Of a stretch of 64,000 nucleotides of DNA, positions 3,900 to 63,127 are shown in pieces (the stretch's first letter is position 1; the number at the start of each line of letters is the position of its first letter). Source of the stretch: Beroe forskalii (Eukaryota; Ctenophora; Nuda; Beroida; Beroidae); the NCBI GenBank assembly GCA_011033025.1, contig WFMF01000181.1, positions 248,001 through 312,000 of the forward strand, read 5' to 3'. The position numbers and the translations under genes are program-made. Below the pieces are notes generated by a model that saw nothing but the letters and a program-made list of their open reading frames with translations, made no database searches and was not told the origin of the DNA.

Positions 3900-4663
3900 C
3901 TTTGATTTCCAGACGACCACACAAAACGGACAGTGACACCTCCAAGCCCTTAATAAGGGAAAAGTTCGTTTCTTTGGTAGTTGCAAATCATTGAATTACC
4001 AATTAAATACTCTTAGATTATAATACTTCAATACTATGGTTAAATTCTAGCTATGACAGTTTTTGAAACGTTCTTAATCAGTTTTTAATGTTTTCACTTA
4101 TCTCTTATCAATGATAGTTATAATACGAATTTTTACTTTATACTCTCCTGCTAAACGAATTTTTAATTTATACTCTCCTGCTAAACGTTTATTAAAACTT
4201 CTGTATCGAACAGTTTTCATTCACTTGAAGGTGCAGCTGTTTCATGAGTTCACAAGGACGTGTGTAACCCTGTTAGCTAAATGTCAATCCTATTTGTTAT
4301 TTAATGATAACAAAGTTTTGTGTTAACTTTCAGCCTTCACAACATAACTTGTATTTAAAATAAAACAAAGTGTTACAATCTATTGTGATAATAACACAAT
4401 TAGCATCCTTTTCATTATCTAAATCAATAGGTATAGAAGATATGATGAGATATTTTCTTCTTTGTACCGAAATTGCTAGAGTCTCGCACCATATTTTGCT
4501 GGACAACAGTCTCGACATAAAATGTTTTTCACTAGATGTTCTTGATAAATTAACAGCAATGATTGCTAATCATGAAACAATTATCATGATTATTTCCTTA
4601 CGAGATTTAAATTATACCTTACGAGATAGATTTGAATGAATGAATAATGATTAATGAGTATAG

Positions 4664-4780
4664 CAATTATTGTGCGAGGGGTAGCCGAGTGCAATAATTT
4701 GTATTGTCGCATGAGGAGCAGGCCGAGTGCAACAATACCAAATTATTGCACGAGGAAAAGTCGAGTGCAATAATTTCATT
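4664..4780. repeat. Three hairpins with GAGGC-x-GCCGAG core
   Basis: Successive imperfect palindromes: AATTATTG...CAATAATT, GTATTGTCGCA...AACAATAC and AAATTATTGCA...TGCAATAATTT. Each has a centre of the CGAGG-n-GCCGAG type. They match the trio at 17191-17302 and belong to a wider hairpin family described under 17191-18742. Confidence 0.8.
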
Positions 4781-5066
4781 AGCATCATGACCATTTAGCA
4801 TGCTCTTAGAGTATTAGCCAATGTGAGGAGTGCACTATTATACGTTTAGAGCATGGCTGGGAATGCGCTTATAGAAGTTATTGCATGTATTGTTAACGTA
4901 TTGTTTGATGGCGTCATATTGAGATTTTGTGGGGGGGACGAAAATTTGGAGTTTTTTTTTCGAAAAATAGCCAAATTTCGTACCTTATGAATATGACTCA
5001 TAGGATATCGAAGTCATCTTGCATTATGATTTACATAACACTATCACTCTACCACAGGGTATAAGC

Positions 5067-8000: not shown

Positions 8001-8814
8001 TGCTCATATGGCTAGTAATCTATCTGTGACAGATGTAAGTTATATATAATTAGCTAATTAAAGATTGAACTTCAACAAAGCAAAATTATGATCATATTAA
8101 TAAGTTGGACCATGACAGCTTGGACATGGACAATTTAAGTAGCACTAAAACATATATAGATGTAATAAAGAAAATTTAATTCTTAACTTTCAATTTTATC
8201 CATCTTTCATGATATTTCAAAATGAAGGTTAATTTCTTTAATTTGGTATGATGATTGCTGTGATTGACTTATTTGCCTTTTATCAGGGTGCCCAGGATTC
8301 TCGATTGTTGAAGAACATAGATAGTAAGTTATATCAGGCAATACAAGTGGAGAAGCTTACATATAATTCACACAACTTTTGTGTAAATAAATCACACTTT
8401 GAGGATAGCAAAGGTTTGCTGCACAATAAATTCAACCTGCTTGCAGTTGCATGGGACAGTAATAGCAAGGAATATGCAGCGCTGGTTGAACACCAAAAGT
8501 ATCCTATTTATGCTTCACAATTTCACCCAGAGAAAAATGCTTTCGAGTGGTCAATATATCTTGACATACCACACACACAAAACGCAATATATTTGACTCA
8601 ATACATTGCAAATTTCTTTGTGGGAGAGGTCAAGAAAAACAACAACCAATACCTGAATTCAGTAGTGTTTTACAAAGATAATATCAACAACTACTCTCCA
8701 GTTTATACTATGATAAAATCCAATACTTCAATTGAATCATGTTACTTTTTTAATGCATTCCGGTCAGATTCAAATGATGACACTGACAAGTATTTCGTGG
8801 ATATAAGATTTTAA
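5067..8814 (+). CDS. GGH: Gamma-glutamyl hydrolase, copy 1 (5 exons)
   Basis: Exons 5067-5277, 5447-5544, 7654-7759, 7931-8034 and 8287-8814 join in phase to 348 residues (human enzyme 318). The protein starts with a hydrophobic signal peptide, as expected for a secreted or lysosomal peptidase that trims poly-gamma-glutamate tails from folates. The class-I glutamine-amidotransferase-like fold is marked by FPGGAQ, by the nucleophile cysteine in FPLWGTCLG (residue 137) and by the catalytic histidine in SQFHPEKNAFEW (residue 253). Start is ATG 5067, the first Met of the signal peptide. Intron 2 carries a 1.7-kb insertion absent from the paralogue. Differs from copy 2 at only three residues (130, 318, 330), so both are probably functional. 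Confidence 0.9.
5770..5894. repeat. Array of four GC-rich perfect hairpins
   Basis: GGGCGCT/AGCGCCC (5770-5787), AGGGCATCTGCC/GGCAGATGCCCT (5812-5837), CCTCGGCCC/GGGCCGAGG (5835-5855) and GTCCCGGCC/GGCCGGGAC (5872-5894). They sit in an otherwise AT-rich intron. Confidence 0.85.
6330..7100. repeat. Tandem repeat, about 141-bp unit, six copies
   Basis: The word CCAATTAAACCAATTA begins at 6364, 6504, 6647, 6790, 6929 and 7070, giving spacings of 139-143. Each unit also carries ATGGTATCGACTTCATTCTAACGCC and a TTTGGCATGAATTG word in diverged form. Divergence between units suggests an old array. Confidence 0.85.
7141..7471. mobile_element. Foldback (long inverted repeat) element
   Basis: Arms 7141-7261 and 7337-7471 are reverse complements with few mismatches (outer end ATATGGTATGACAAAAAACA), separated by a loop of about 75 bases. 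A related terminal sequence, GGTATGACAGAAAACAATTGG, starts at 10709 at another foldback element, so this is a family. Confidence 0.85.
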
Positions 8815-35255: not shown

Positions 35256-35828
35256 CTAGCCTTCCTCCTCGTCATCTTGTCTGACGATAGGAATGCCATC
35301 CAACTTCTTCAACTTCATCAGCTTCTTCTCAATCTCACCTCGCCACGTTCCGTCTAAAGAATGCTTCTCCTCGATGGGGTTGTTGACCATGTTCAGATCC
35401 ACCAGACACGGCAACTCCGACAACTTCTGAACTTCGCTCCAATCCTTGACCTGGTTGTTGGACATGAAGAGCACTTGGAGCTTCTTCAGTACTCCGATAC
35501 CTTTCATCTTCTCGATGAGGTTGTAGCTGATCCACAGCTCCTCCAGAGTGTCCCCCACGGGCTCGAGACCACTGAAACTCTTGATGTTGTTCCGGCCCAG
35601 GGAGAGGATCTTCAAAGACTTAAGTCCATTGAGATTCGTGATTTTCTCGATACCGTTGGTAGATAGAGAAAGCTTCTTACAGTTGGTGAGAGTTGAGAGA
35701 GAAGCATCCATCTTCTCGATTGACGGAATTTGACAGATCAGCTTTATTTCTTCGGCTTCAGCAGCCTTTTCTCCGGTTTTGCCCTCCCAGGCCGCCAGGG
35801 CTTCCTTGATCGTGGTTCCCTTAGACAT
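35256..35828 (-). CDS. DNAL1: Axonemal dynein light chain 1
   Basis: A single exon codes 190 residues, the same length as the human protein, starting [15 protein letters not shown]. Leucine-rich repeats cover residues about 45-150, with blocks such as [19 protein letters not shown] and LEELWISYN that are near-identical in DNAL1 of other animals; the acidic tail ends in DDEEEG. DNAL1 (Chlamydomonas LC1) binds the gamma heavy chain of outer-arm dynein at the microtubule-binding stalk and tunes beat. No intron is present, which is unusual next to its many-exon neighbours. It lies between two other cilium-associated genes on the same strand. Confidence 0.97.
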
Positions 35829-36718
35829 TGCTCAGGTGAAGATATTAAGTGACGGTTGGAGCAAAAATTTGAAATGAGAAACTTTAATAAATCGAAATTA
35901 TAACTTCATGAAAAGGAAATAATTAGACATGAATATTGACTCTCATTGAAAACATGCAACACATGAGCTGAAAATAAAAATACGGAAATATGAAACATCG
36001 AAATAAAAATCAATTATCGTATTAATTTGACAAATTTTCAAAATACAATACAGTACCTTAGCTTTTAAGTTAGCTGTTCAACCAATTTAAATGGAAAATA
36101 AAGACTAAAGTGGTACGGCAAAAATTCTGCCATTCATTAATCATTTTGCTCTAAAATCGTAATAATAAAATCCTGCTAAAATCAATTCTTCATAAATGTA
36201 TAAATATTAATGGCTAAATGGAATTAATGGCGTATAGAAATATATCTGAATCTTTTTTAACATAATATTACCAATATCATAGGATTTCCGAATGTGTACC
36301 CAATACCCATGATAGATCGAATATTCGTGAAAAGAATCACCATTCTCTGACCAATGACTATTAGAGCTCACACTGCTATATTGTACCTAGTCATTCAAAC
36401 TTCAACATATTGATTCTTTTATTGCTTTAGTCGAATCGAATGCTCAATTGCTCGAGTTAGGATGTAGTTCGATTTTCCACACGAAAGTAGATGAATAATG
36501 GCATATGGCATGAAAATTTTATTGGGTGAGATGAGCTGCTATTGGCAGATTTATCGAGCTCCCAAAAAACCAATTTCAAGGATATTCCGAGATTTCTTGG
36601 CTGATCCAATTCAACTCTTTAAACATCAAGACGTCGTGTTAATTCGATCGATTTTATTTGGCCCAGTCACACGGGGAAATAGGAGGATAACGAAAATTCC
36701 TGAAATCTGAAAGTGACA
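35829..36718. other. Spacer between DNAL1 and FAM227
   Basis: AT-rich, no repeat or gene recognised. The plus ORF at 36498-36710 shows no family resemblance. Confidence 0.4.
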
Positions 36719-43006: not shown

Positions 43007-46000
43007 GTATCGGTGTATGGAACAAAACAATCGAAGGTCCGATCGCACTCGAATTTCTAAATGAGGTCGCCCAATCAAAAGACCCATTCGAGAATCCCTT
43101 GGGGTTCTTAACATTTGCAGGTAAGGATCGAGTTGTCGTCCTTAAGTCCTTATTGTCGACAGCGTAGCAGGAGAAATTTAATTGATTTACAGTACGAGGC
43201 GAAGCAAAGCTGAGCCAAGTGCTCTAATCATATTTCTGCGGTGAGTTTGAGCCTCTAAAGTTTAAAGTAAATAGATAAGTAGCCTATTTCACTCAATTTT
43301 CAATGAAAAGATTAAGAGCTGAACGATTGAATTCCATCAACCAAGTGTGGCATCACAGGTTACATCCACTTCTCTGTGGCTGTCAATACAGAGAAGGATG
43401 GGGGGAAGGACCCTCTTCAAGTTAATCAAGAAGATGTCGACGCGTCAATTCAGTCCTTCCAACGCCATAACGGATTTGTAGAGAATGGTAAGTGCGTGCT
43501 CATTGAACAGGGAGTAAAGAATTGAACTTCATTATGAAGTTAAATTAGTACCAGGGTGTTTCTTATTAATTTCTAAACATATATTTTATGATAAAAAAGT
43601 ATGTCATTATTTCATTCTAACTCCGCAGATATGAGATCACTTATTGTGAAATATTATTACCTCATCATTGGATATGTAATGTTTGTTTCCTTCAATAGGT
43701 GAAGTAACGGATGAAATGGTGGAGTTCATGAAGAAAGATAGGTGTGGGAACCCTGACGTGGAATACTCGAGAATAAGTGAGATGGACAGATATGCAGGCC
43801 CGCAGCCAGGATATTTCTGGGTAGGGCTCTTCATAGTGAGCAAGCTACGGCAGGGGTTTGAGCCAGTCCCCGGACTTTTTGAGAAAATTGAGTTTATAGA
43901 TTGTTTTTGGGGTCAAAAAGTATCAAGTTTATTATTCACGCATTCTTTCACGCATTTATTAACTTATTAAAATACATGCACCTATGCCTATGGGATCCAT
44001 ATGGGGAAAGTTTCCGAGGGTGTAGCCGAAGGGATGTATTCCAAACTTATCCCGTCGCAAACGAAACTGCAGTTCGAACTGCCACTGTTAGAGACTTTAA
44101 TATGCATACAAATTGTAAAAAACCAATGCAGAATTTACGAGGTATATAATATGATAATCCATCCCCCGTCAGATACTGCCATGCCATGAATGAGGACGAG
44201 ATTTCAGGAGAGTTCAGTGGAATGGACGTGGACAATGTCTTCGTGAAGAGAGGATCCCGAACTCTAGTACTTCCAGGTTTGCACTAGAACGTGATTTTAT
44301 CTTTTCATGTAATGCGTGACTGTGTATAGTATCCGTGCACATATTGTGACATTCAGAACAAGCAAAGATGTTAGTATGATCGCTGCGCCATGGCTCAATC
44401 ACTAGAGCACTAGTATAGTACAGTAGTATGTTATAGTATTAAAATATTAGAATCCAAAATTGATATTCCTGTTCCAGGAAAAAGCGAAATAGAAGTCGAG
44501 GCAATATCATACTACTGCGAATTGGACATTGAATTTCCAGAGTCTGTGGATGGCCAAAACAATGACCTGAGAATCGCTTTCAATTATGCCAACAACGTGT
44601 CACCTGAGAGTGGCATCCCCCTGGAAATAGTGGCTTTTAGATTGCGAAGTGGTCAGCTTTGTGTGGTATTTGAGAAAAAGATCAGAGGTTGGTTGCTAAG
44701 TTTTAGTTAGTTCCTTAGTTAGTTCCCTAGTCTTATGTTTTCATGAGTTAACTTAAAACGGTGATTCGATTCAATACAAGATACTTATCGAAATCCCAAG
44801 CTAAAATTTCCTTTTTTTCTAGATTTTGAGTCAAAAAATTTCTTAGTCGGTTTCTCAATTCTGCATACAGTACAGCAAATGTTTGTGAATTTTTCCAATA
44901 TAGGAACCTACTCAGTAGATTGTGGTTGGTACATAAAACGATGAAAACTAAGTGAACAGGTGAGGCATTCCAAGGCAGGCTCGGGGCACCAACTATGACC
45001 TGCAACTATACCCCAATCATGAGAATCTTTGAATACTTGAATAGGCACCAGATAGAGACCGGAACAATTTTCAGGGCAACTAAGCAGACTCGTTATTAAA
45101 ATAATAGTAGACCATATCTGATATCAAAATCAGCTCAGTTTTTCACCTATAAAACATATAAATTTGCACCACAATTCCACCTTCCTTAAGGTATAGTCCG
45201 ACGTCAGCGAGGGACCCCTGTATCATGTTACGATATGACAAAGAACGAAAGAATAACCAGACAATTCAAAGTTGGAATAAATGTGTACAAGGGGGAAGAG
45301 GTTGTACCAGGGAGAATTCTGGTAACTGTAAGAGGACAGAAAGTGGCGGAAAATGTTTTCCTTTCACCAATTCAATCATCTGTAAGAAAACAGTTGGTGT
45401 TTTAGGGTTTACTTGTAATAAGTTCCAACTTTCATTTTTCAGTCAAAATAATTACTATATGGTTTAGTACTTGAACAGTTTTATAGTTCTATATTTTTCC
45501 CTCCCCAACGTCTTTTTGTCAAGTACAAAAAGGCATTGAAGAGGCTTAGCTGAGATCGTAGTTGGGAAGGCGGGAAAAAGGATATGTACATATGTGTATA
45601 GCTGGTCAAGATTTGCAATAGAACAACTTAACTTTCTTGAAAGTGCCTGGATTGCTCCTTTATAATATCAGTCGCGAAAATGTCCTTCCGTCCGTCCCCT
45701 GTCACATAAATCTTCCATATCACGAATTTCTAAATCATGGAGCTGTCGGTTGTCAAAAAAAATAAATCTTTTTTTTTTTTTTTTTTTTTTTTTCGAAAAA
45801 CGTGCCACGAAAACCAATGGAGTGGGGCCCATCACCTGTGCCCCGCCCGCGCCCTGCCCTTTGCATGCTAACAACTATCTGGGTATACAAGGCCAGAACG
45901 CGGGCTGGAGGCAGGCACCGGCGCACCACCACACTGCCTTTCGGGGCAGTCTTGGACAAGATAATCCCCAACCTCTGACGGTAGCCACCTTATACGCCCG

Positions 46001-49000
46001 TTCCCGGGCCAAGACTAGTCCTAAACCTAAGGGTGTGGCTACCATCGCTGAGGGTATACCCCTAGGAGATCCAAACATACGGAATCCAAGACTTTGAGGA
46101 TCCTAAGGTAAAAGGTAAAGATTAAGAAGCAGCACACTCACGGAAGGAAAGGAAAAATGGAGGGACCACTGTGAACAAGATAGGATAGGTGAGCAGCACA
46201 TGTCGCTGACGAAGTAAGGAGAATAAGGATAACAAATAGAAAAAATAAATCTTATAATATGTTGACCAGGCCCATCTGTGCCACATGCTCGAACTCTCCT
46301 GAATTATAATGAGAAGTTCTTAATTGAGGGGTTGTTGAAGAATTTTTGTCTCAAATTCTTAGGACTGAGTTGGGCTATGGATTGGGGAAAAAGCATTTGG
46401 TTCTGCACTTAGTACTAAACTATACTATTGAACACTTAATTCGAGAAATAAACATTAAACACCTACGATGTGAAAGTCGAAGATTTCTTTTTGATATGAG
46501 CGACACCACCATCGAGACTTTGAAAAGTAAGAACACTTAAAATCAGATAAAAAGTCAAATCGAATTAGTGAATGACTTAAAGTTCTGATCATACCAATAT
46601 GAGCAGTATCACTAGGATAGTAAATGATCTAACATCTGTGCTAAAATTTCATAAATTCTACATTTCTTGATGATGCTCAAATGATTAGATGATAATGTGC
46701 TTGAGTGATTTGAAGCATGATGAAGCTGCTTCGTAGAGTACAAATACTCAAGAAAATACAGTGCGTGAATAAACGGTGGCACAAACTGATTCATAAACCA
46801 ACTGATTCATAAACCAATCAAACAAAATGGCGCGAAATCTACATCGAACTGCAGTAGACCACCAAATTGGTACGATGTTGTGCACCACAATTTTGGAAGA
46901 CTCAGCACGTGCTAATGTACATTCTTAGTGGTCGGGCGCAACATCGGAACAATTTATTTATAGTTTTACTAGGACTGTGTATTGTATCATGATGTTGAGT
47001 CAACATCAAGCACTGCAGGGGAGGGAAATTAAGCACCGGCATAGTGCATACGGGGAAAAACGGACAAATGATAATTGTGCCGGCAGGTGAAATTCTTTTA
47101 ATTAGTTCTTTTAATTGATGATTCCATTTATGATATATTTTGATGATTTTAAAAATCCAAACCCTCAACAGCATTTTGGGAACTTTGTTTTAAGTTATCT
47201 AACTAAGTTATAAAAAGATAAAAGAACGATGAAATAATGTTATTATAGTGGTCAGGGGCTGTGAATCTCAATTCCCACAGGTTTTGGTGGCTTCTGAAAA
47301 ACAACATCAAAAAATAACCCTTACACGGTTGTGTAAATGGACCGACATATTGAAAGAAAATGCTATGATTTCTAGAAGAAAACGATATATTTCTAGAAGA
47401 AAACGATATATTTCTAGAAAAAAACGATATCTGTCTAGAAGAAAACGATATGAACTATTTCTGAATAGATGGCTCAATGACAAGGAACTCAGATTCAGCT
47501 TTCAGAATTACAGGTCCAATACCATGCAACCTTTCTACAATACCACAAACTGCAAATAATGATACTGTAGTGTTACAATTGGTTTAATGTGAATATCAGA
47601 TTTGCTCCCTCTACAAGTCAAGCAGTCAGAACTGTTACCTAATCGGACATAATCATCACGGATATTACAGTCCTCAGTGAGAATGTGAATTTTAATGTCC
47701 GTGAAAATTATCTCCGTGATACTTATGTCCATGATTATCAGGTCTGGTAAAATAAAGTCCATTATTTCCTACTAAAATTTCTTGGGCACAGACGCAAATT
47801 TTCTGACATCATCTCTTTAAATGCCAATAAGGCACCATCAAGACTGCAAAAATTAAAGTTGCTTCCATATGGCTTTTTGGGTTCTATACATTATAGGGTA
47901 AAATAGTTATTAAAATAAAGGGGACAATTTTTTGACCACGGGAACATTTGGCCAATACCATGCCCATCTGGACTTATTTGAAGGATTACAGCAACAGCCG
48001 AGCCTGTGAGCCATAATTCAGAAAAATACGTCAAAAACTAGGCCATGTCCATATTTTTTATGGGAAAATTTGAAAATTTTTGTCGACAGTATAAAATCCA
48101 ATTTCATATGGAGTACAGTCTAGAACATATCTAGGAGTTCGGGACAATTGGGACAGTGACACCCCCCTATGGATCTTGGGCCTCCTGTAAAGCTTTAAGC
48201 ACAAGGGCAAATTTTCAACGTCATCTTCATTGACAAATATGACACCCAACCAATCGTATTATTAGTAGAAAAAATTTAATTTATAGAAATTGTAACCACT
48301 TTCTCTTTCATAACTTTCATCTATAATGCTTCTGGACCAGGAATAAAGGGAAAAACGGCCAACAGCCAACGGACAATTGGCCGAAATTGACAATTTTTAG
48401 ACCCCTAGGCCCCAAGTATAAAGCCTAAGATGTAAGAGCTGTTATGGCGGTACTCAGTGGCCGATATTTAATGGTGAACTAAAGGCCCAAGGATTAGTTG
48501 GATGCAAAAGCGACATTTTTTTCATGCAAACATGTACGACCAAAATTTGTCGTATGCAGCACCACCACCAATTTCCGATTTAACACAACGCATAAAGGTA
48601 GTTTACACAACTCATACTTTCATACAAAACACGATCTCTGTTAACCTTTTTCGATGTATTTTTGTGAACAAAAACGCGACTGGGAACGGAAAAGATATTG
48701 GTGTTGCCTAGTTTTTGACGTATTTCTCTGAAATTATGGTCTGCCGTTGCTCCAATCATTTAAAAAAAGATCATGAATTGACTCAAAATTTTCCCATGGT
48801 ATAGATGGGCATGGCACTAGCCACAATCTCCCATGGTCAAAAAATTTGCTTCTCGTGAAATTTTGATTATTGACGCCCTTAACTACCCAAAAAAGCATGG
48901 AAAAAATTAAATGACCTTTTGAAGCCAATTCCACTTTTAGCATAACTGACTTAACTATTATACAGCACAACCCTGGGGAAAGAAAACACGAGAAGTGAGG

Positions 49001-52000
49001 TTGTAAAGGCACTAAGACTCTACAGCCAGCAAACTGGTATCAATTTCACGGAGGTATCTTATGATACGAGAGCTGATATTGTTTTTATGTTCATCAAAGG
49101 AAAACATGCTGACAATAAGAACTTTGTTTCAGCAGGTAAATGTTCATGTTTTATTGTTAAGTTGTCAAACTTTAATCAAATTTCAAGTCAAATAACATGA
49201 AAACGAAAATTGGACTCGTTTTCCTCCCCATCATTCACTTCTCAAGGGAAACATATAACGAAGAAATCACGCAGATGAAAAACACTAGCAGCTAATTAAA
49301 GTTTTATATACTGTATGTGCGGCACATTGTTGAGGCACATACTTACTTAGGTTTCATGAGTGCTTATCAGTCCACGAACACAGCACATGTTTTGTTCCTT
49401 CATTATTTCATTGAAATGATCTGAGTTTTGGGGGGAAGCTTTCATTTCATTCCAGGTGAGCTTTCTTCTGAGGTAACCTTAGTAGTATAAATTACATGGT
49501 TTGTACTTATTAAGGTCATCGACTTTCATCGACTTATTAAAGTATTAAGGTCATCGGTAATTAATGAGAGGTTTTGTAACAAGCAACATTTGCAAATATC
49601 GATATTATGCACCGAGCGCCAAGCCCGAGGGCATAATAACACATTAATACCGAGGCCAAACGCCGAGGTTTAAATGGAAGGTTTGCAGTTTTTGCGAGTT
49701 ACAAAACCGAATTATGCAACGACAATACATGTAGGTATATACTTCGGAATTATATTTTGTTTCTCTATAGTAAGGTCACGCTTTGAAAAACACTAGGGCA
49801 TAATGGTTTTATTATCAACTGAAGTTACACTTTTTTGGCACTGTAGTTGCACTTTTTTTAAAGTGTCACTGTTTTAGTGTGCATAATCGGTATAAAAGAG
49901 CACTGCGTAAACCTCCTTAGAAGTTGCATAATTCACTTTCAGCCATTTTAAATACAGATTATCTATGAGAAAGTGCTGATGATTAAAGAAATTGATTCAC
50001 GATCTTGACTGAAAATTTGCTTTTAATTGCCCAAGAGCTGTTTAAAATCTATCAATTTCATGTTTTAATCTTCGCATTTTTTAAATTTTTACAGGATCTC
50101 ACAAAGGTCATGCTTATTCCCCTCTTCATGGTGAGATACATTTTAATGACTACGAGACATATACAATCCAGAAAGAAGTTTTTTCAACAAGCTTGTTTTG
50201 GCTAGCAGCGCATGAAATAGGTAAACAAACTTACAAAATGCCAATTATTTCAACGTCTGATGTATTCTATTTTAAAAAGACCAATTGTATAATGTATATG
50301 ATTATTATAGCATTTATGTTCATGCAATATCCATAAGGTACCTATTCATTGCACATAATTATAAATATAAATGGACATTACAGGGCATGCAATGGGCATC
50401 AAACACTCAAAAACCATGGAAGCTCTGATGGCAGCAGGTTATCCAGGGGATAAAGCTTATGAATTCACCCAACTTCATATTGATGATATAGATGCATTGA
50501 AATATCATTATGGTGCTCGCAAAGGTTTAAGATTTATGATTGTCTATCTGCATACAAAGTGATAATTTGAATATGCCCAATATTATCTATGATATACTTA
50601 GTATGTTCCGTAAATAATTTCACCGCCCTATTTCTGGAAAACTGTTTGAGATAGGAGAATTTTTGTGTGCAACACGTAAATCAGCGGAAAATTTATCTCA
50701 TTACCAGTAAACAGCATAAAAGTTAACAGTTTTGGTTCTAGAAAATTTGGAAAAGTCCGCCACTGTACGTCGTTTTTAAACCTTAATAAACACAAAGCCC
50801 AAAGAATATAAAGCTACATGTGCACTGCACAGTGTGCATGTAGCTTGTCTGACAGAAACCTGTCATACAAGTTCAAATCAGGTTTAGGGACTCAAACCTG
50901 ATTCAAACCTGATTTGAACTTGTGTGATGGGTTTCTGTTCACCAGACTTCAAGAAAATTGATGAATCAGACTGAATGCGAAATAAGGAGTCGGAAACTGA
51001 TGTACAGCGTTTTCTGAGGCAAATTTAAAACTATTGCTTTAATGGGAATTAGAGAAGTCAAAATCATCGAAATATGTTAGTTTGAAAATTGGGTGTCCAT
51101 ACTACATCATGGTGTATTATATTATATTCTATTAATTTAAGTCCATTTCTTCAATTTATTGAAGATTAAAATTATCTATGGAACAGACCAAGTATAATAA
51201 CCAGAATGATTTTGATTGTTAATCATGCATCATTCACCTCACCAACCTGATAGTACTTCACTTTATAACATTCCAAATCATGATACTTATTACTTTCCCA
51301 GCTCTATTTCGTAAACATTATGCTAATATATTCTCATTTACTGCAAAGTTTTTCCCATTTTTTACTCATGCCCATCATCGTGCAGGTGGAGAAGTTAAAG
51401 AAGATAGCAATCTTAAGGAACCAGGGACAGACTACAATCCTAAGCTCCCATTACCTAAACAGTGTATCAATAAAATTGATGCTGCATTGAATATTGGAGG
51501 CATGTTTTAAGCTTATTATTATATTCTTTTCCTCTTGGTCTACAGATACTAGATTCTTGTAATTCCATTATTGCAAAGGAGGTTTGCAATTAGCTTGTTC
51601 AATGAAAAGTATAACATTTAACAAAAACAGGTATATACTACCTCATTTCTGGAATATTACTATGGGAATTGAAGGAGAGTACTGTATCTGGCAACGAGAA
51701 ATATACAGTATCAGAAGGATATCCTAAGCTTGTTACGAATAAATTTAAAAATTCACATGGTAGAGTGACGACAATGTTCAAAAATGCCGCTGATAATACC
51801 ATTTTCATCATTCATGACAAAGATAAGGTTTCTTCGTATAAATTTACTAAGCTTCAAAATGGAATAATTTTTTCACCAAGGGAACATGGTCCAGAAGATG
51901 TCTCATTACAATTTGAAAACGTAAATAAAGAAATCAAAGCTGCCTTTCAACATGGAGATAAAACTATTTTGGTTGCAGAAGACCTGAAAACTTTCTATGA

Positions 52001-55000
52001 GGTTATATTCATATTCTATGTAATTTCTATGATATAATATTTCATAAAAACCTAATTTAACCACAGCAAGAATCACAAAAATTTGACCCTTTTATTTTCC
52101 TTTCTAATTGGTCAACCCTTATAGGAACCAGAGGTCCAAGTTCGGTTTTTGGGTTTTTAATGTTTTGGATAGAGAAGAACACGATCTACCAGTAGGTTTT
52201 TGTCACAGTAATTAAAGGCAAACTAGTGGTTTGAAAAATTCATAACTTCTGCTAGGAACAATATTTTTGGTAGAAAAACCTACTGGTAGCTGGCGTTCTC
52301 CTCTATCAGAAACAACAAAAAACAGGAAATCAGCCTCAGACCCCATAGCCCTATTAAAGGTGCATGGTGTTATTTTCATGAAAAATGAAAATATTTGCTT
52401 AATATTTTTAAAATGCTCCTTCTAGCATTACAATAACTCTTGGTAAGTGGTGTGGGCATGTAATTTCCATGTATTCTTCTTAACTTGCATCATTCTTAAA
52501 TAGTTCATAACTACCTATTTCAGATTGAATGGGAGGTAGGCAAAAGACGGATTGAGAACATAGTCCCAAAATCAACAGTAAATGAAATTATTGGAAGGGA
52601 AATGAGAGATTTCAATGCAGCTATGACTGACAAGAGTGGAAAGTTGCTATTATTCAAAAAAAAAGAAGTAGGTAACAAGTTATCTAGTAATCTATTTACT
52701 CACATGTATAATAACAAACTTAATCAGTTGGTAATTGGTTTGACTGATGAAAGCATAAGGCCTGTGAATGAATTATGTCAATAGTTGTATGGTACAAAGT
52801 AAAGGATTGTTCACATAATATTATGTAATCAATTTCTGGCCATTGTTAACTCCCTCCCCCCCCCCCCATACCTAATCAAATTTCATCAAAGTCCAAACCC
52901 CCCTCTTGAGGAGAATATTATGTAATCATGGCTACCCCACCAACTTGAGTATACAATGAAGAAAATGGACGGTGTAAATACTCAAATATTGATTAAGTTT
53001 CAAGTTTGGGAAATTTTGATGAAAATATTGACGAAAGTTTTGAAAAATTTTGCTGAAAAATGTTGCCTTTGAGTAAGTTTTCAACAAATTTGGCCAAAAT
53101 ATCATGAAATCACGGCAAAAGCTATGTTGAAAATTAGATTAACACCCCAAAAGCTGCAATGGGTATTGGACTCATGATGCCTGCACACCACTCATTTTGG
53201 TGCGACAAACTTAGATCTGGTTGTTCTTGCATAGTATTTCTCGAAAGGAATCATGTTCTCAAGGAATCAAGGAATCAATTTAGTGACCATCCATGAAGGT
53301 CCTCCACAAAGAGGGAGGAAGGGGAGGTCTGGCCGATGCAGACATTGTGGACATAGGGGGTTTTTAGGTTTTTGACTTAGATTTTCGACAATAATTTAAA
53401 TAATAAAGTTGATTTTGCCACCATAAGATTTTGAATGGAAATGTGGATGTCCAAAGGGGGAGGGGGTATTTTAGGCTGCAGACATTTGCGGACAAGGGGG
53501 GAGGGAGGAGTCTAAAGTAGGGGTCTAAAAATCCAGAGTTAGAGAAAAGTCTTGCAGATCGATGTGTTTCAAAGGATTGTTTCCATAATTGTTCATATAC
53601 AGATATTTTGATTACCTAATTAACCACTGAGCCTCCTCCTCCTCATCCTCCCCCCCCCTCTATCAAACATTATCATTTGAAAACCTTCCTATCCCTCGCC
53701 ATTATCATGTAATATGTAAAAAATCTCTTGGTGTATTAATATTTCCTTTGGCATCCTTATAAACTGCACTGATAATGTATGTGCTTCAGATATGCATATC
53801 ATTAGAAAGTTTCAAAATCCTTAATCAAATATAATTTTTAACTTAGAATGTCTGACTTGTATTCCTACTTTTGGGTGATTTTTTTGTTTTATTATTTTGT
53901 TTGAAAATATAGTAGGTCAAATTGTTTTTCAAATTGTTTTTCAAGAGGGATGCCATCTGCCCATATATTATATAACCACCTTATCATCCCCAAACCCACC
54001 TGATTTAGCCTCCAACCCACCCTAAACCACCAAACCCACCTGAAGTCACCCAAAACCACCTGAACCCAATTGAAACCACCAAAACCCACCCTGAAATCAC
54101 CAAAACCACCTGGTCCAAAACTCATACTTCAAAGTATAAACCAGGTAAACCCTCCCAAATGGGTAGGTTCACCTGGTTATGCCTGTTTTGGGTGGGTTCA
54201 GGTGGTTCCCACCAGCCCCAACCCTGACCAAGCCAAACAAGGAATTTTGGCTGGTTTGAGCAAAGTTTTCTGCTTGTTTTGGGATGGGTTTAGTCTTAGT
54301 AAAAACGGCCACGGTCGGATTAATCAACCTGGCCGGTGGCAGCCATGCAGAGTATAGAGACTTGAGACTTCCCTATACACTAGGCCAAGGGTATAAACTC
54401 CAGGGGTGTTTTGAGGCCACCTGACTGCCAGGTTATATCCTGGGTTGAGAGCGGAATCTAGTCTTGGACCACATAGGCCTTGGATTCCACTAGCGCGGGT
54501 GACTTCAAACGGACTGCAAAGCAAGTTGAGGCTTGCCTGCAGATTAATAGGTCAGCTATCAGCCAAATGTGGCTATGTACCACCTCCATCTGACTAATGA
54601 TACACGAGATGGTCTGCAACAGTAGTCTGAAAACATAGAGTCTCTTCTGCTTTGACTGCACAAGGATGCAGCTTCAGCCAGGTACAAAAGGGCATAAACC
54701 CAGCCCAAAGAGTTAGTGGCTCTTTGGAGACCAAATAAGAGGTAGGTAGTAGTGTGTATTTTGGGACGTTACATTTGGTTTTTTATCAGGATTTTATCTC
54801 CTTGGAGATATGAGCTCTGTAAATTGTGGGATTTTATTAAAGCAGGCAGATTTTGTGAAGAATTTTGTTATTTTGTGCAGGGTTGTTGAGAGTGGCTGCT
54901 AAGAGTTAATAGATGTCTTCTAGTTTACTTTTATGGTCTTGGAAGTGGTAAATTCTCTGTAGGGAGAAGGCTGGACAGTCTTCTAGAATGTGCAATGCTG

Positions 55001-59787: not shown

Positions 59788-61678
59788 CTTGTACAGAGCA
59801 TAGGAATGGTTGATCAGCGAGGGATTTTCTGGTTAGTTTAGCTTCTCTGATTCCTAAAAATGACCAGATGCGACAGAAGAAAGGCAATATGCTGATACGT
59901 TTTTAAGATACCAGCTTATCTAGAAAAGCCATGAATGCAGTATCAGCTTCCCTATGAGCTCACGGTAGAATTTCAACAAATATCTGTCCTTGGTCATTGG
60001 CCGCACCAGAAGCTGACGTTGGTAACTACTCATCCCCAAGTTTTGTGAATTCCATCATTCTCGCGGAGTCAATCACATTTCACTTCCCAGAGCTTCGATC
60101 AGGTGGTAAGTTGGTGTCATGTTCAGGGATAAAACATGTGATGTCTTGACTTCTTGAGCATCGCATGTTGCTGGAAATAGGGAAGTAATAAAGTAATGAT
60201 TGATTGAAAACGCTCTGCAGTAGGCGTTGGCATATGCCTCAATAGAAAATAGAAAATATTCAATGAACAATGAACATATTATATCAAAAGTCTGTTCATA
60301 GCTCAATTCGAAAACTACCAAAAATAATGATAAAAACCTAAAGCTGACAATGACGTGTTCGGTAAGATGTTACTGACATAATAAGATTAATACGACGATT
60401 TGCTATTAAGGAAAATGCAGCTCTAAAATTCGAAGAAAAGACGACAGTGGTGGAAAAACAATGGATCCTTTTTAGAAGTTGGAATAAACATATTCGGTGA
60501 ACCAGATTATCGAAATAGCGTTGAGATGATAGATTTTTAAACTTTTTCAAGAATTACGTCTGAGTTCGTACTCAAACGACAGAAATTATTGCTTCATCAG
60601 TATTTACTTAATATGTTATCCATAGGTCAAAAGGCCAAACTATTCCACAACATAGTCAGTTCCAGTTTTGGAATTCTTGAAAATAAGTTGTTATCATTAC
60701 CTACCCACAAAATTTCCACATAATGATAATTTTACAAATTGTTATTTCTTCAACGTATTCGAATGGATGCCTAGAAATCTGATAGTGTTAGGTACTATTT
60801 CACTATTTTACTATGCTTTGATTAGTTGATTTAATTCCATTCAAAGAAGTGAATGGAATTGTGTATATTGCTCTGGGTACACCTGGCATCATATACAAAA
60901 GTGCACATAAGCACATTGCTCCATGATTTTATCGTTTGATTTTTCATTCGCCTTAGTTTATTAGCTGAATTTCGTGAGTTCCTCTACCTATCACCTAACT
61001 GACACAAAGGCTTTTCTATAATTATTATTTAAAGAATTAAGTACTTGGGCTTTTGAACTTGAAATCCCCTCGACTTAAACTAATCTTGCTCATTCGCTCA
61101 AATTATCCAATATTTTTAAAAATCCCAAAAATACAAAGTCCATCTCTCGTAATGTCAGTGTTGACGTTTACCTCCTGAGTCTCTATCAGTCACATTCCAT
61201 GCGGCTATAACAGCCGTACACGGGAGTCTATACAGTGCGCCTAAACAGTGCGTTAAGGCTACTTGTCATTGTATAAAATGCATTTCAGGTACTGTTATAG
61301 AGCTGTACATCACTATTTTCAAAGCTGCGCTGCGCCCATACTCCTTTGATAAATATTAAATCGCAGTAAGTCCATTAACTTTGTGCAGGCTGGCAGTTCT
61401 ACTGAACTGTAAAACCGTTTCTGAAGTCCTACTTCAATGCTAGGACTTCACCAGTCCATGAACGAATGTTTCAATTGAATCTGTGGTAGGAAAAGTGCAG
61501 GAAATTACAAGTGCATTGTACTCGTTTGACATTCAGCATGGAGCTTTACAGTTTGATTTTTGTGGAATCTTAATAGCACATTTGGCATTATTTGAAACTT
61601 TGAAATATCCATCCTCTAACTTTGTAAAACACAAACACATGAACAAACTCTTCCCTTTCTCAGGAAGAGCAGAGGAAA
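59788..61678. other. Spacer between receptor and glucosyltransferase
   Basis: AT-rich, no repeat or gene recognised. The plus ORF at 61483-61827 overlaps the next gene's start in another frame and is taken as chance. Confidence 0.45.
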
Positions 61679-63127
61679 ATGCACTTGACTACCACCCACC
61701 CCCTGCTATACACCCTCCTCCTGGTTATTTCAACAGGTACCTCCTCCTCCTCCACCTCCATCCCACCTGCTCAACTTACCATCGTTATCCGCAACTCTCT
61801 CAACACCCTCAGCATAGCCCGTGCTGAGGAGCTGAGGGCAGGTATTCTGAGGGAGGCAGAGCAGCTCAGTAATGGACATGGTATTGATGTTCTGATGTTG
61901 CATGAGCAGTGGGCTCCAAAGCATTCCTGGACAGTGCTACCGATGTTTGAGTACCTGCTTAACACGTACCAAGACACAGGGGTGAAATGGCTGTTTTTCT
62001 GTGAAGACAACACTGAAGTCAGCTTAAAAGGACTTCTGAGTGTTCTAGAGGGGTTTGAAAGCAGTGAGAGACTCTTTCTTGGGCATGCCCTGCATGACGA
62101 CGAACCGTCCATAATCCATCATTTCAAGTTCCTATCTAACCCATCGCAGTTCAAATACCCAGATTTTGACGCCGGATGGGCGATCAGCATGGAACTTTTA
62201 AAACATTCTGTGGCAGGGCTAAGCACGAAATTACCAACCGGATCATTTACCATTGATGTTCAGCATGAAGTTGCCATGTTTTACTACGATGATGGTATTC
62301 TCCTGACGAACGTCCCTCAGTTTTGTGTCAATAAACCGCTGGGTGAGGACGAATGTGTCTCAACAGTGCGGTACACTGAACCTGACTGTGGCTCGGTTGA
62401 CGCAGAGGATATCTTGGTTTCAGTAAAAACATGCCACAAATTCCACGGTACCCGTATTCCGGTGTTTAAAGCCACAAGTGCCCGTAACGTGAAGCACATC
62501 AGGTACTGGAGTGACGTTGTGGACGCGGCCATACCGACGCAGTATGCCGGCGTACCGAATACCGAGTCCGGGCACTGTGCCAAACTCCAGCGGATAATCG
62601 AGATATTCGGAACTGAGGAGGAGTGGAAGGGAAAGAAGTGGCTGGTGATAGTGGATGATGATACGATCATGAACTTCGCCCGGTTACAGCGACTGCTAGC
62701 GTGTTACGACCCAGGAGAAGGAATACTGCTGGGAGAGAGGTACGGGTTTGGAGTGGGGTATCAGGGCACGGGTGGGTATTCCTACCCCACCGGGGGGTCC
62801 GGGATGATTCTCAGTCGGGATGCGGTGAAAGGTGTGCTAAGATGTCGTTGTTCGGGACCGGAAGCTCCAGATGACATGTTTCTGGGAGGTTGTTTTGAGT
62901 ATAAGGCAAGGATCCCCATGATCCCGTCCAAATCCCTCCACCAAACGTATCCTTCGCAGTACAGCCAGGAAATGCTATCTCACCGCTATTTGGTGTCATT
63001 CCATAAACACAACCGGCAGGATCCGATGGAAATATTCAGAAATTATTTGGGAGGGGAGAGTGAAACCGTTGATAGTAACGATGAAGATATTGGTGAAGAA
63101 AACTGTGATTTAAAACAGGAATTGTAA
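61679..63127 (+). CDS. B3GLCT: Beta-1,3-glucosyltransferase, B3GLCT-like
   Basis: One exon codes 482 residues (human B3GLCT 498). A signal peptide (LLYTLLLVIST) is followed by an N-terminal pseudo-glycosyltransferase half and a C-terminal GT31 domain with the metal-binding DDD at about residues 325-327 (VIVDDDTIMN), GGSGMILSRDAV and the EAPDDMFLGGC block typical of fringe-like enzymes. The protein ends KQEL, an ER-retention signal like the REEL of the human enzyme. It adds glucose to O-fucose on thrombospondin type 1 repeats after POFUT2. Start ATG 61679 places the signal peptide at the N-terminus. The lack of introns may be ancestral loss or retroposition; no poly(A) trace is seen after it. 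Confidence 0.93.
   Translation: MHLTTTHPLLYTLLLVISTGTSSSSTSIPPAQLTIVIRNSLNTLSIARAEELRAGILREAEQLSNGHGIDVLMLHEQWAPKHSWTVLPMFEYLLNTYQDTGVKWLFFCEDNTEVSLKGLLSVLEGFESSERLFLGHALHDDEPSIIHHFKFLSNPSQFKYPDFDAGWAISMELLKHSVAGLSTKLPTGSFTIDVQHEVAMFYYDDGILLTNVPQFCVNKPLGEDECVSTVRYTEPDCGSVDAEDILVSVKTCHKFHGTRIPVFKATSARNVKHIRYWSDVVDAAIPTQYAGVPNTESGHCAKLQRIIEIFGTEEEWKGKKWLVIVDDDTIMNFARLQRLLACYDPGEGILLGERYGFGVGYQGTGGYSYPTGGSGMILSRDAVKGVLRCRCSGPEAPDDMFLGGCFEYKARIPMIPSKSLHQTYPSQYSQEMLSHRYLVSFHKHNRQDPMEIFRNYLGGESETVDSNDEDIGEENCDLKQEL

Follow-up and report, generated by a model that had tools for sequence, protein, structure and literature searches.

What occupies the stretch between the cysteine switch and the catalytic domain of a matrix metalloproteinase (MMP) gene in the comb jelly Beroe forskalii, where an original prediction made from the DNA letters had placed a novel domain? 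The gene lies in a 64,000-nucleotide stretch of contig WFMF01000181.1 (assembly GCA_011033025.1, positions 248,001 to 312,000; C227:248001-312000 in our survey), here called the window, and the genome surveyed around it comprises 216 Mb in 1134 contigs. Our favoured answer, to which we give a probability of about 0.7, is that the gene encodes a furin-type MMP propeptide carrying a cysteine-bounded accessory block of about 200 residues between the switch and the furin site. Homologous copies of the block occur in five paralogues, the tree of the genome's MMPs is consistent with its having been gained once, and its ratio of nonsynonymous to synonymous substitution rates (dN/dS) is low.

Results

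The window gene, predicted to be a furin-type MMP (family M10A), runs on the plus strand from at least 43007 to a stop at 52784 in about a dozen exons. Ten exon pieces between 43007 and 50524 join into a single open frame, with AG/GT at all junctions except at an insertion in exon 3, and this frame leads in order through a prodomain with the switch DRCGNPDV, the extra block, four furin motifs and the catalytic domain. The joined frame bears out the exons originally proposed at 44173-44276, 44478-44687, 45191-45381 and 47281-47513 and their joining in phase; the predicted 200 or so extra residues with several cysteines also lie ahead of the catalytic domain, with five cysteines counted in the window copy. 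The switch was likewise recognised correctly, but at 43737-43760 it begins slightly before the place first assigned to it. Neither a signal peptide nor the true 5′ end of the gene was found.

A search of the genome for M10 domains gave 22 matches, merged into 19 loci, and at five of these the block is found in the same position: the window gene and the genes on contigs C803, C275, C718 and C658 (loci L018, L019, L020 and L021, respectively). In all five the switch comes first, followed by the block, a basic cleavage motif and the zinc site. It is very improbable that the block is an artefact of the gene model, in which exons of another gene or non-coding sequence were wrongly joined in between the pro and catalytic exons; the window copy is indeed spread over several exons and its first junction has no normal donor, but in C803 and in C658 a single uninterrupted frame (768 and 614 codons, respectively) takes in the switch, the block, the furin motif and the catalytic domain, and we reject the artefact for that reason. 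From the switch aspartate to the catalytic tryptophan there are 242 residues in the window gene, 223 in C803 and 217 in C658 (the three of the five block genes that were measured), as against 26-61 in five block-less MMPs (L001, L002, L004, L005 and L006). Searched by tblastn with the sequences of the window gene, C803 and C658 (E up to 0.1), L022-L028 showed no block. Genome-wide protein searches returned no block match outside MMP loci except rows in C792 and C175 (E > 0.02), which we take as chance matches.

The window block matched a profile of the other four at 35.2 bits (E 4.6e-10), the best of 1000 shuffles reaching 6.8 bits. Its first and last cysteines (C11 and C199 in C803 numbering) are shared by all five sequences of alignment A2, and the motifs FK...V and R[LI]CK are present in all five copies. 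In the C part of the block dN/dS was 0.08-0.10 (57 codons; three pairs among C803, C275 and C718), and in the catalytic domain 0.06-0.12 (two segments, four comparisons); by these ratios selection appears to maintain the block. On a tree of 11 MMP catalytic domains of this genome, from which the block was excluded, the five block genes form one side of a branch with support 98/99, and a single gain of the block followed by duplication would be the simplest reading. With a dN/dS of about 0.1, invariant cysteines and motifs in five copies and a profile score far over shuffles, the block is unlikely to be a linker with no function or little constraint, in effect the MMP21 spacer taken to an extreme, even though it sits exactly where MMP21 has its insertion, has neither a Pfam family over cut-off nor a PDB profile match, and is only 23% identical to C803 in both the window copy and C658.

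Several points weigh against the favoured answer. The profile alignment starts near block residue 50, which leaves the first 50 or so residues of the window block, and with them the part encoded by 44176-44276, outside the match. In C275 (L019 4251-4275) and C718 (L020 4357-4465) the frame breaks inside the block, whether by decay or by a fault of the assembly; since dN/dS was computed with these copies, it may reflect former as well as current constraint. Over 123 codons of the block's N part, C803 against C275 gives a proportion of nonsynonymous differences (pN) of 0.21 with synonymous sites saturated. The tree leaves four of its eight inner branches unresolved and places L006 on a long branch. 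The window copy has an insertion in its exon 3, and the evidence throughout is genome sequence only.

That insertion lies at the first junction, from the switch exon to 44173, which the original prediction wrongly treated as a plain splice. Within coding exon 3, 377 bp of repeat DNA (43793-44169) stand between copies of CAGATA at 43787-43792 and 44170-44175; the left flank has no GT donor, the coding sequences of C803, C275, C718 and C658 are uninterrupted at this site, and merging the flanks at CAGATA restores an in-frame ...SEMDRYCHAM.... On these grounds exon 3 of the window copy seems to have received a repeat insertion, and we rejected an ordinary intron at 43790-44172, there being no left GT donor, repeat DNA within it and paralogues that code straight through. 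The genome search with 43793-44169 gave at least 41 matches including itself, at least 37 of them in the first 165 bases or so (71-86% identity) and at least three in another short repeat around 44042-44102, these being lower bounds with 40 of 133 candidates scored. The interspersed repeat covers about 43795-43954; of 13 copies fetched, 11 carried the first repeat and two the second.

The insertion may be spliced around, in which case it could be a new intron, or it may have damaged the window copy. The acceptor at 44172 could pair in frame with GT donors within the repeat (43855 and 43891) or with others at 43723 and 43741, whose use would remove the switch. It is a possibility, though we lean away from it, that the window gene is a decaying copy broken by the insertion while its paralogues are the working genes: the insertion stands between CAGATA copies with a flank that has no proper donor, and read-through past the switch reaches a stop at 43968-43970. 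On the other hand, the pieces between 43007 and 50524 otherwise hold frame and AG/GT, with switch, furin motifs and zinc site all preserved, and the donors at 43855 and 43891 could serve. As the repeat is 71-86% like other copies, the insertion need not be recent. The existence of the block in the MMP family is independent of this odd junction.

The enzymatic parts of the block genes are those of MMPs. Against a cut-off of 24 bits, Peptidase_M10 scored 29.2 in a window exon, 109.6 in C275, 95.7 in C803, 93.4 in C658 and 71.3 in C718. The zinc site HEXGHXXGXXH (here HEIGHAMGIKH) and the Met turn read HEIGHAMGIKHSKTMEALMAAGY across exons 50095-50220 and 50384-50524. Directly before the catalytic domain RX[KR]R occurs four times in the window, once in C803 and twice in C658, and C275 and C718 have the furin-type motifs HHRKRR and YHRKKR, respectively; the window's four (RRKR/RKKR) are coded in succession by a 21-bp tandem unit at 47354-47451, an array that likely fixes the end of the propeptide. 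In L018, the sequence scanned, PG_binding_1 scored 16.1 bits (cut-off 23). Fibronectin II repeats gave no Pfam match in L018, and the joined catalytic exons of the window show no extra residues. A hemopexin domain is a feature of most MMPs. The C-terminal part of the window gene resembles its counterpart in C658 (L021; tblastn E 0.001) and its exons look hemopexin-like by eye; Pfam, searched for hemopexin, gave no match for window 51615-52037 or L021 1251-1805.

As to the identity of the block, its profile found no match among PDB sequences at E up to 10, and no Pfam or NCBIfam family exceeded its cut-off in any of the five block members, all of which were scanned. A profile match to a known MMP insert, named in advance as the outcome that counts against a new architecture, was found in neither Pfam nor NCBIfam. 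One member of the five gave a ribosomal L27 row (Pfam E 0.0034, 17 bits against a cut-off of 20.5; NCBIfam E 0.08); with this lone row below cut-off and no PDB profile match, we rejected the block as a known domain. Ten PDB sequences from single-sequence searches with the block (E 0.11-0.8) are regarded as chance matches. Among contig stretches fitting a pattern, none of 40 bacterial or archaeal and none of 64 viral ones was confirmed as a relative. By eye, the alternating hydrophobic pattern suggests a beta-sandwich, galectin- or LamG-like.

Table 1. Exons and other features of the MMP gene in window coordinates
Feature	Position	Strand	Basis
Prodomain exon (IGVWNKTIEGPIALEFLNEVAQSKDPFENPLGFLTFA)	43007..43120	+	AG/GT, frame; resembles L018 (YSVVWTPTFDGSIAYDVLMSAP...SSVLGF) by eye, unscored
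Prodomain exon (YIHFSVAVNTEKD...SFQRHNGFVEN)	43359..43487	+	AG/GT, frame; tblastn with L018/L019/L020 proteins, E 0.005/0.0003/0.0008
Left part of exon 3, holding the cysteine switch DRCGNPDV (43737-43760)	43699..43792	+	tblastn E 4.8e-5 (L018), 4.4e-6 (L019 switch region)
Exon 3 insertion, repeat-bearing	43793..44169	+	Genome matches; paralogues continuous here
Exon 3, right part, start of extra block (CHAMNEDEISG...TLVLP)	44176..44276	+	Frame, GT donor; outside scored profile alignment
Extra block exon (KSEIEVEAISYYCELDIEF...FEKKIR)	44478..44687	+	tblastn alignments to L018, L021; profile match
Extra block exon (IVRRQRG...FKVGINVYKGEE...SPIQSS)	45191..45381	+	tblastn alignments; profile match
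Block end (ITLTRLCKW), furin-motif array, catalytic start (ELFLNRWLNDKELRFSFQNY)	47281..47513	+	Profile, frame, splice sites
21-bp tandem repeat, 4.6 copies; RRKR/RKKR starts at 47374, 47395, 47416, 47437	47354..47451	+	Tandem Repeats Finder
Catalytic exon (TTLGKENTRSEVVKAL...KNFVSA)	48966..49135	+	Pfam Peptidase_M10 29.2 bits (over cut-off); tblastn
Catalytic exon (SHKGHAYSPLHGEIHFND...AAHEI)	50095..50220	+	tblastn E 3.8e-11 to L021
Catalytic exon (GHAMGIKHSKTMEALMAAGY...)	50384..50524	+	tblastn, frame, splice sites
C-terminal exons (QCINKIDAAL ... NELCQ stop), internal splice sites unsettled	51386..52784	+	tblastn with L021 C-terminal frame, E 0.001, 0.07

Other features of the window and the genome

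A second conserved domain is found at the C-terminus of the MMPs L003 and L004 and in frames upstream of C803, C718 and C658 (L018 7718-8266 and 8441-8896, minus strand; L020 1100-1564; L021 about 4454-4792, minus strand); the two copies in L018 stand in tandem, and a stop falls in the upstream one. It had no PDB profile match, and no Pfam match in the copies scanned; the L003/L004 group and the upstream-frame group are linked through alignment A5 (19-20% identity). The block as a copy of this second domain was rejected (hhalign probability 0.2%). Among the other MMPs, L002 encodes in one frame an unusual mix of EGF (just below cut-off), two sushi repeats and a weak hemopexin match by Pfam, and L004 has a Pfam Ephrin_rec_like match; by eye, L006 looks CUB-bearing and L025 C-type-lectin-like.

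Elsewhere in the window, 1344-31163 is a tandem duplication in pieces (81-99% identity) with duplicated frames at 8242/22400 (the first a GATase) and 1371/14848 (the first with STPRs). A single frame of 494 codons at 61643-63127 encodes a Fringe-like glycosyltransferase (Pfam E 5.8e-54), and a leucine-rich repeat frame at 35256-35831 on the minus strand appears to resemble axonemal dynein light chain 1. Rfam gave no match in the window or in the mitochondrial contig.

The mitochondrial contig, C1134, is 13,339 bp long with a guanine-cytosine (GC) content of 17.5%. Its COX1 has five in-frame TGA codons and seven AGR codons, five of which fall at what are presumably conserved arginine places. 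ARAGORN with the bacterial code found no tRNA in the contig, and by eye two long unassigned frames follow the putative ND5. According to the available part of an account of three Beroe forskalii mitogenomes (PMC6991124), these have a mean GC content of 17.3% and use the Coelenterate code without deviation; tRNAscan-SE detected no tRNA in them, and ND5 is followed by two large frames of unidentified product (PMC6991124).

Discussion

The closest known arrangement is that of MMP21 (XMMP), which is likewise furin-type and has an insertion at the same position as the window block, between PRCGXPD and RXKR, of 20-44 residues as described in the accessible portion of one study (PMC2656525). Compared with that description, the block genes differ in having 217-242 residues from switch to tryptophan, with conserved cysteines. 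The original prediction of a novel MMP architecture thus stands as regards a large, conserved and unclassified block, by the evidence of four paralogues, dN/dS and the tree, but its contrast with MMP21 was overstated. Because the MMP21 insertion is at the same place, the position and the principle were already known, and it is the size, the sequence and the conserved content, cysteines included, that are new.

Among PDB sequences the best matches of L018 were proMMP-9, stromelysin-2 (MMP-10) and stromelysin-1 (MMP-3), with which it shares the switch PRCGV.D, the catalytic HE.GHALGL.HS and the Met turn. The alignment to proMMP-9 extends to PRCGVSDVEY (10.7 bits, weak alone) and resumes at the catalytic tryptophan, with eight residues between the two parts in MMP-9 and 219 in L018. 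The gelatinases MMP2 and MMP9 are also MMPs with an added domain, but their fibronectin II insert sits inside the catalytic domain, unlike the block, according to the portion available of a study of echinoderm MMPs (PMC8467561). The furin-activatable MMPs of echinoderms similarly include many lineage-specific genes with a furin motif before the catalytic domain; they have the standard domain structure, with no such block described in that portion (PMC8467561). In a literature search with most subscription journals outside its scope, we found neither a switch-block-furin architecture nor a paper combining Beroe, metalloproteinase and ctenophore.

Lying after the switch and ahead of the furin motif and catalytic domain, the block falls inside the segment that furin-type activation removes, as described in the accessible text on MMP21 (PMC2656525). 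In the block genes the cysteine switch would keep the enzyme latent, a proprotein convertase would cleave after RX[KR]R, and cleavage would release prodomain and block together, the block acting as an accessory module of the zymogen that might shield the cleft, aid folding or tether the zymogen to the matrix or cell surface. We favour an accessory zymogen module on the ground that constraint on the block's C part is about as strong as on the catalytic domain. More tentatively, and with the balance of our judgement against it, the block could be an undescribed, possibly ctenophore-specific folded domain that serves as a second lock or as a zymogen tether and is freed as a protein of its own by the furin cut.

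In the ctenophore Mnemiopsis several MMP transcripts are regulated during regeneration, according to the part available of one report (PMC10876535). About 200 conserved residues in Beroe forskalii, where zymogens like proMMP-9 have few, make a natural test of how much sequence between switch and cleavage site latency will tolerate, and suggest strong diversification of MMP architecture in comb jellies. If the block were indeed a second lock or a tether, the latency and location of these MMPs would be set by a module unknown in other animals.

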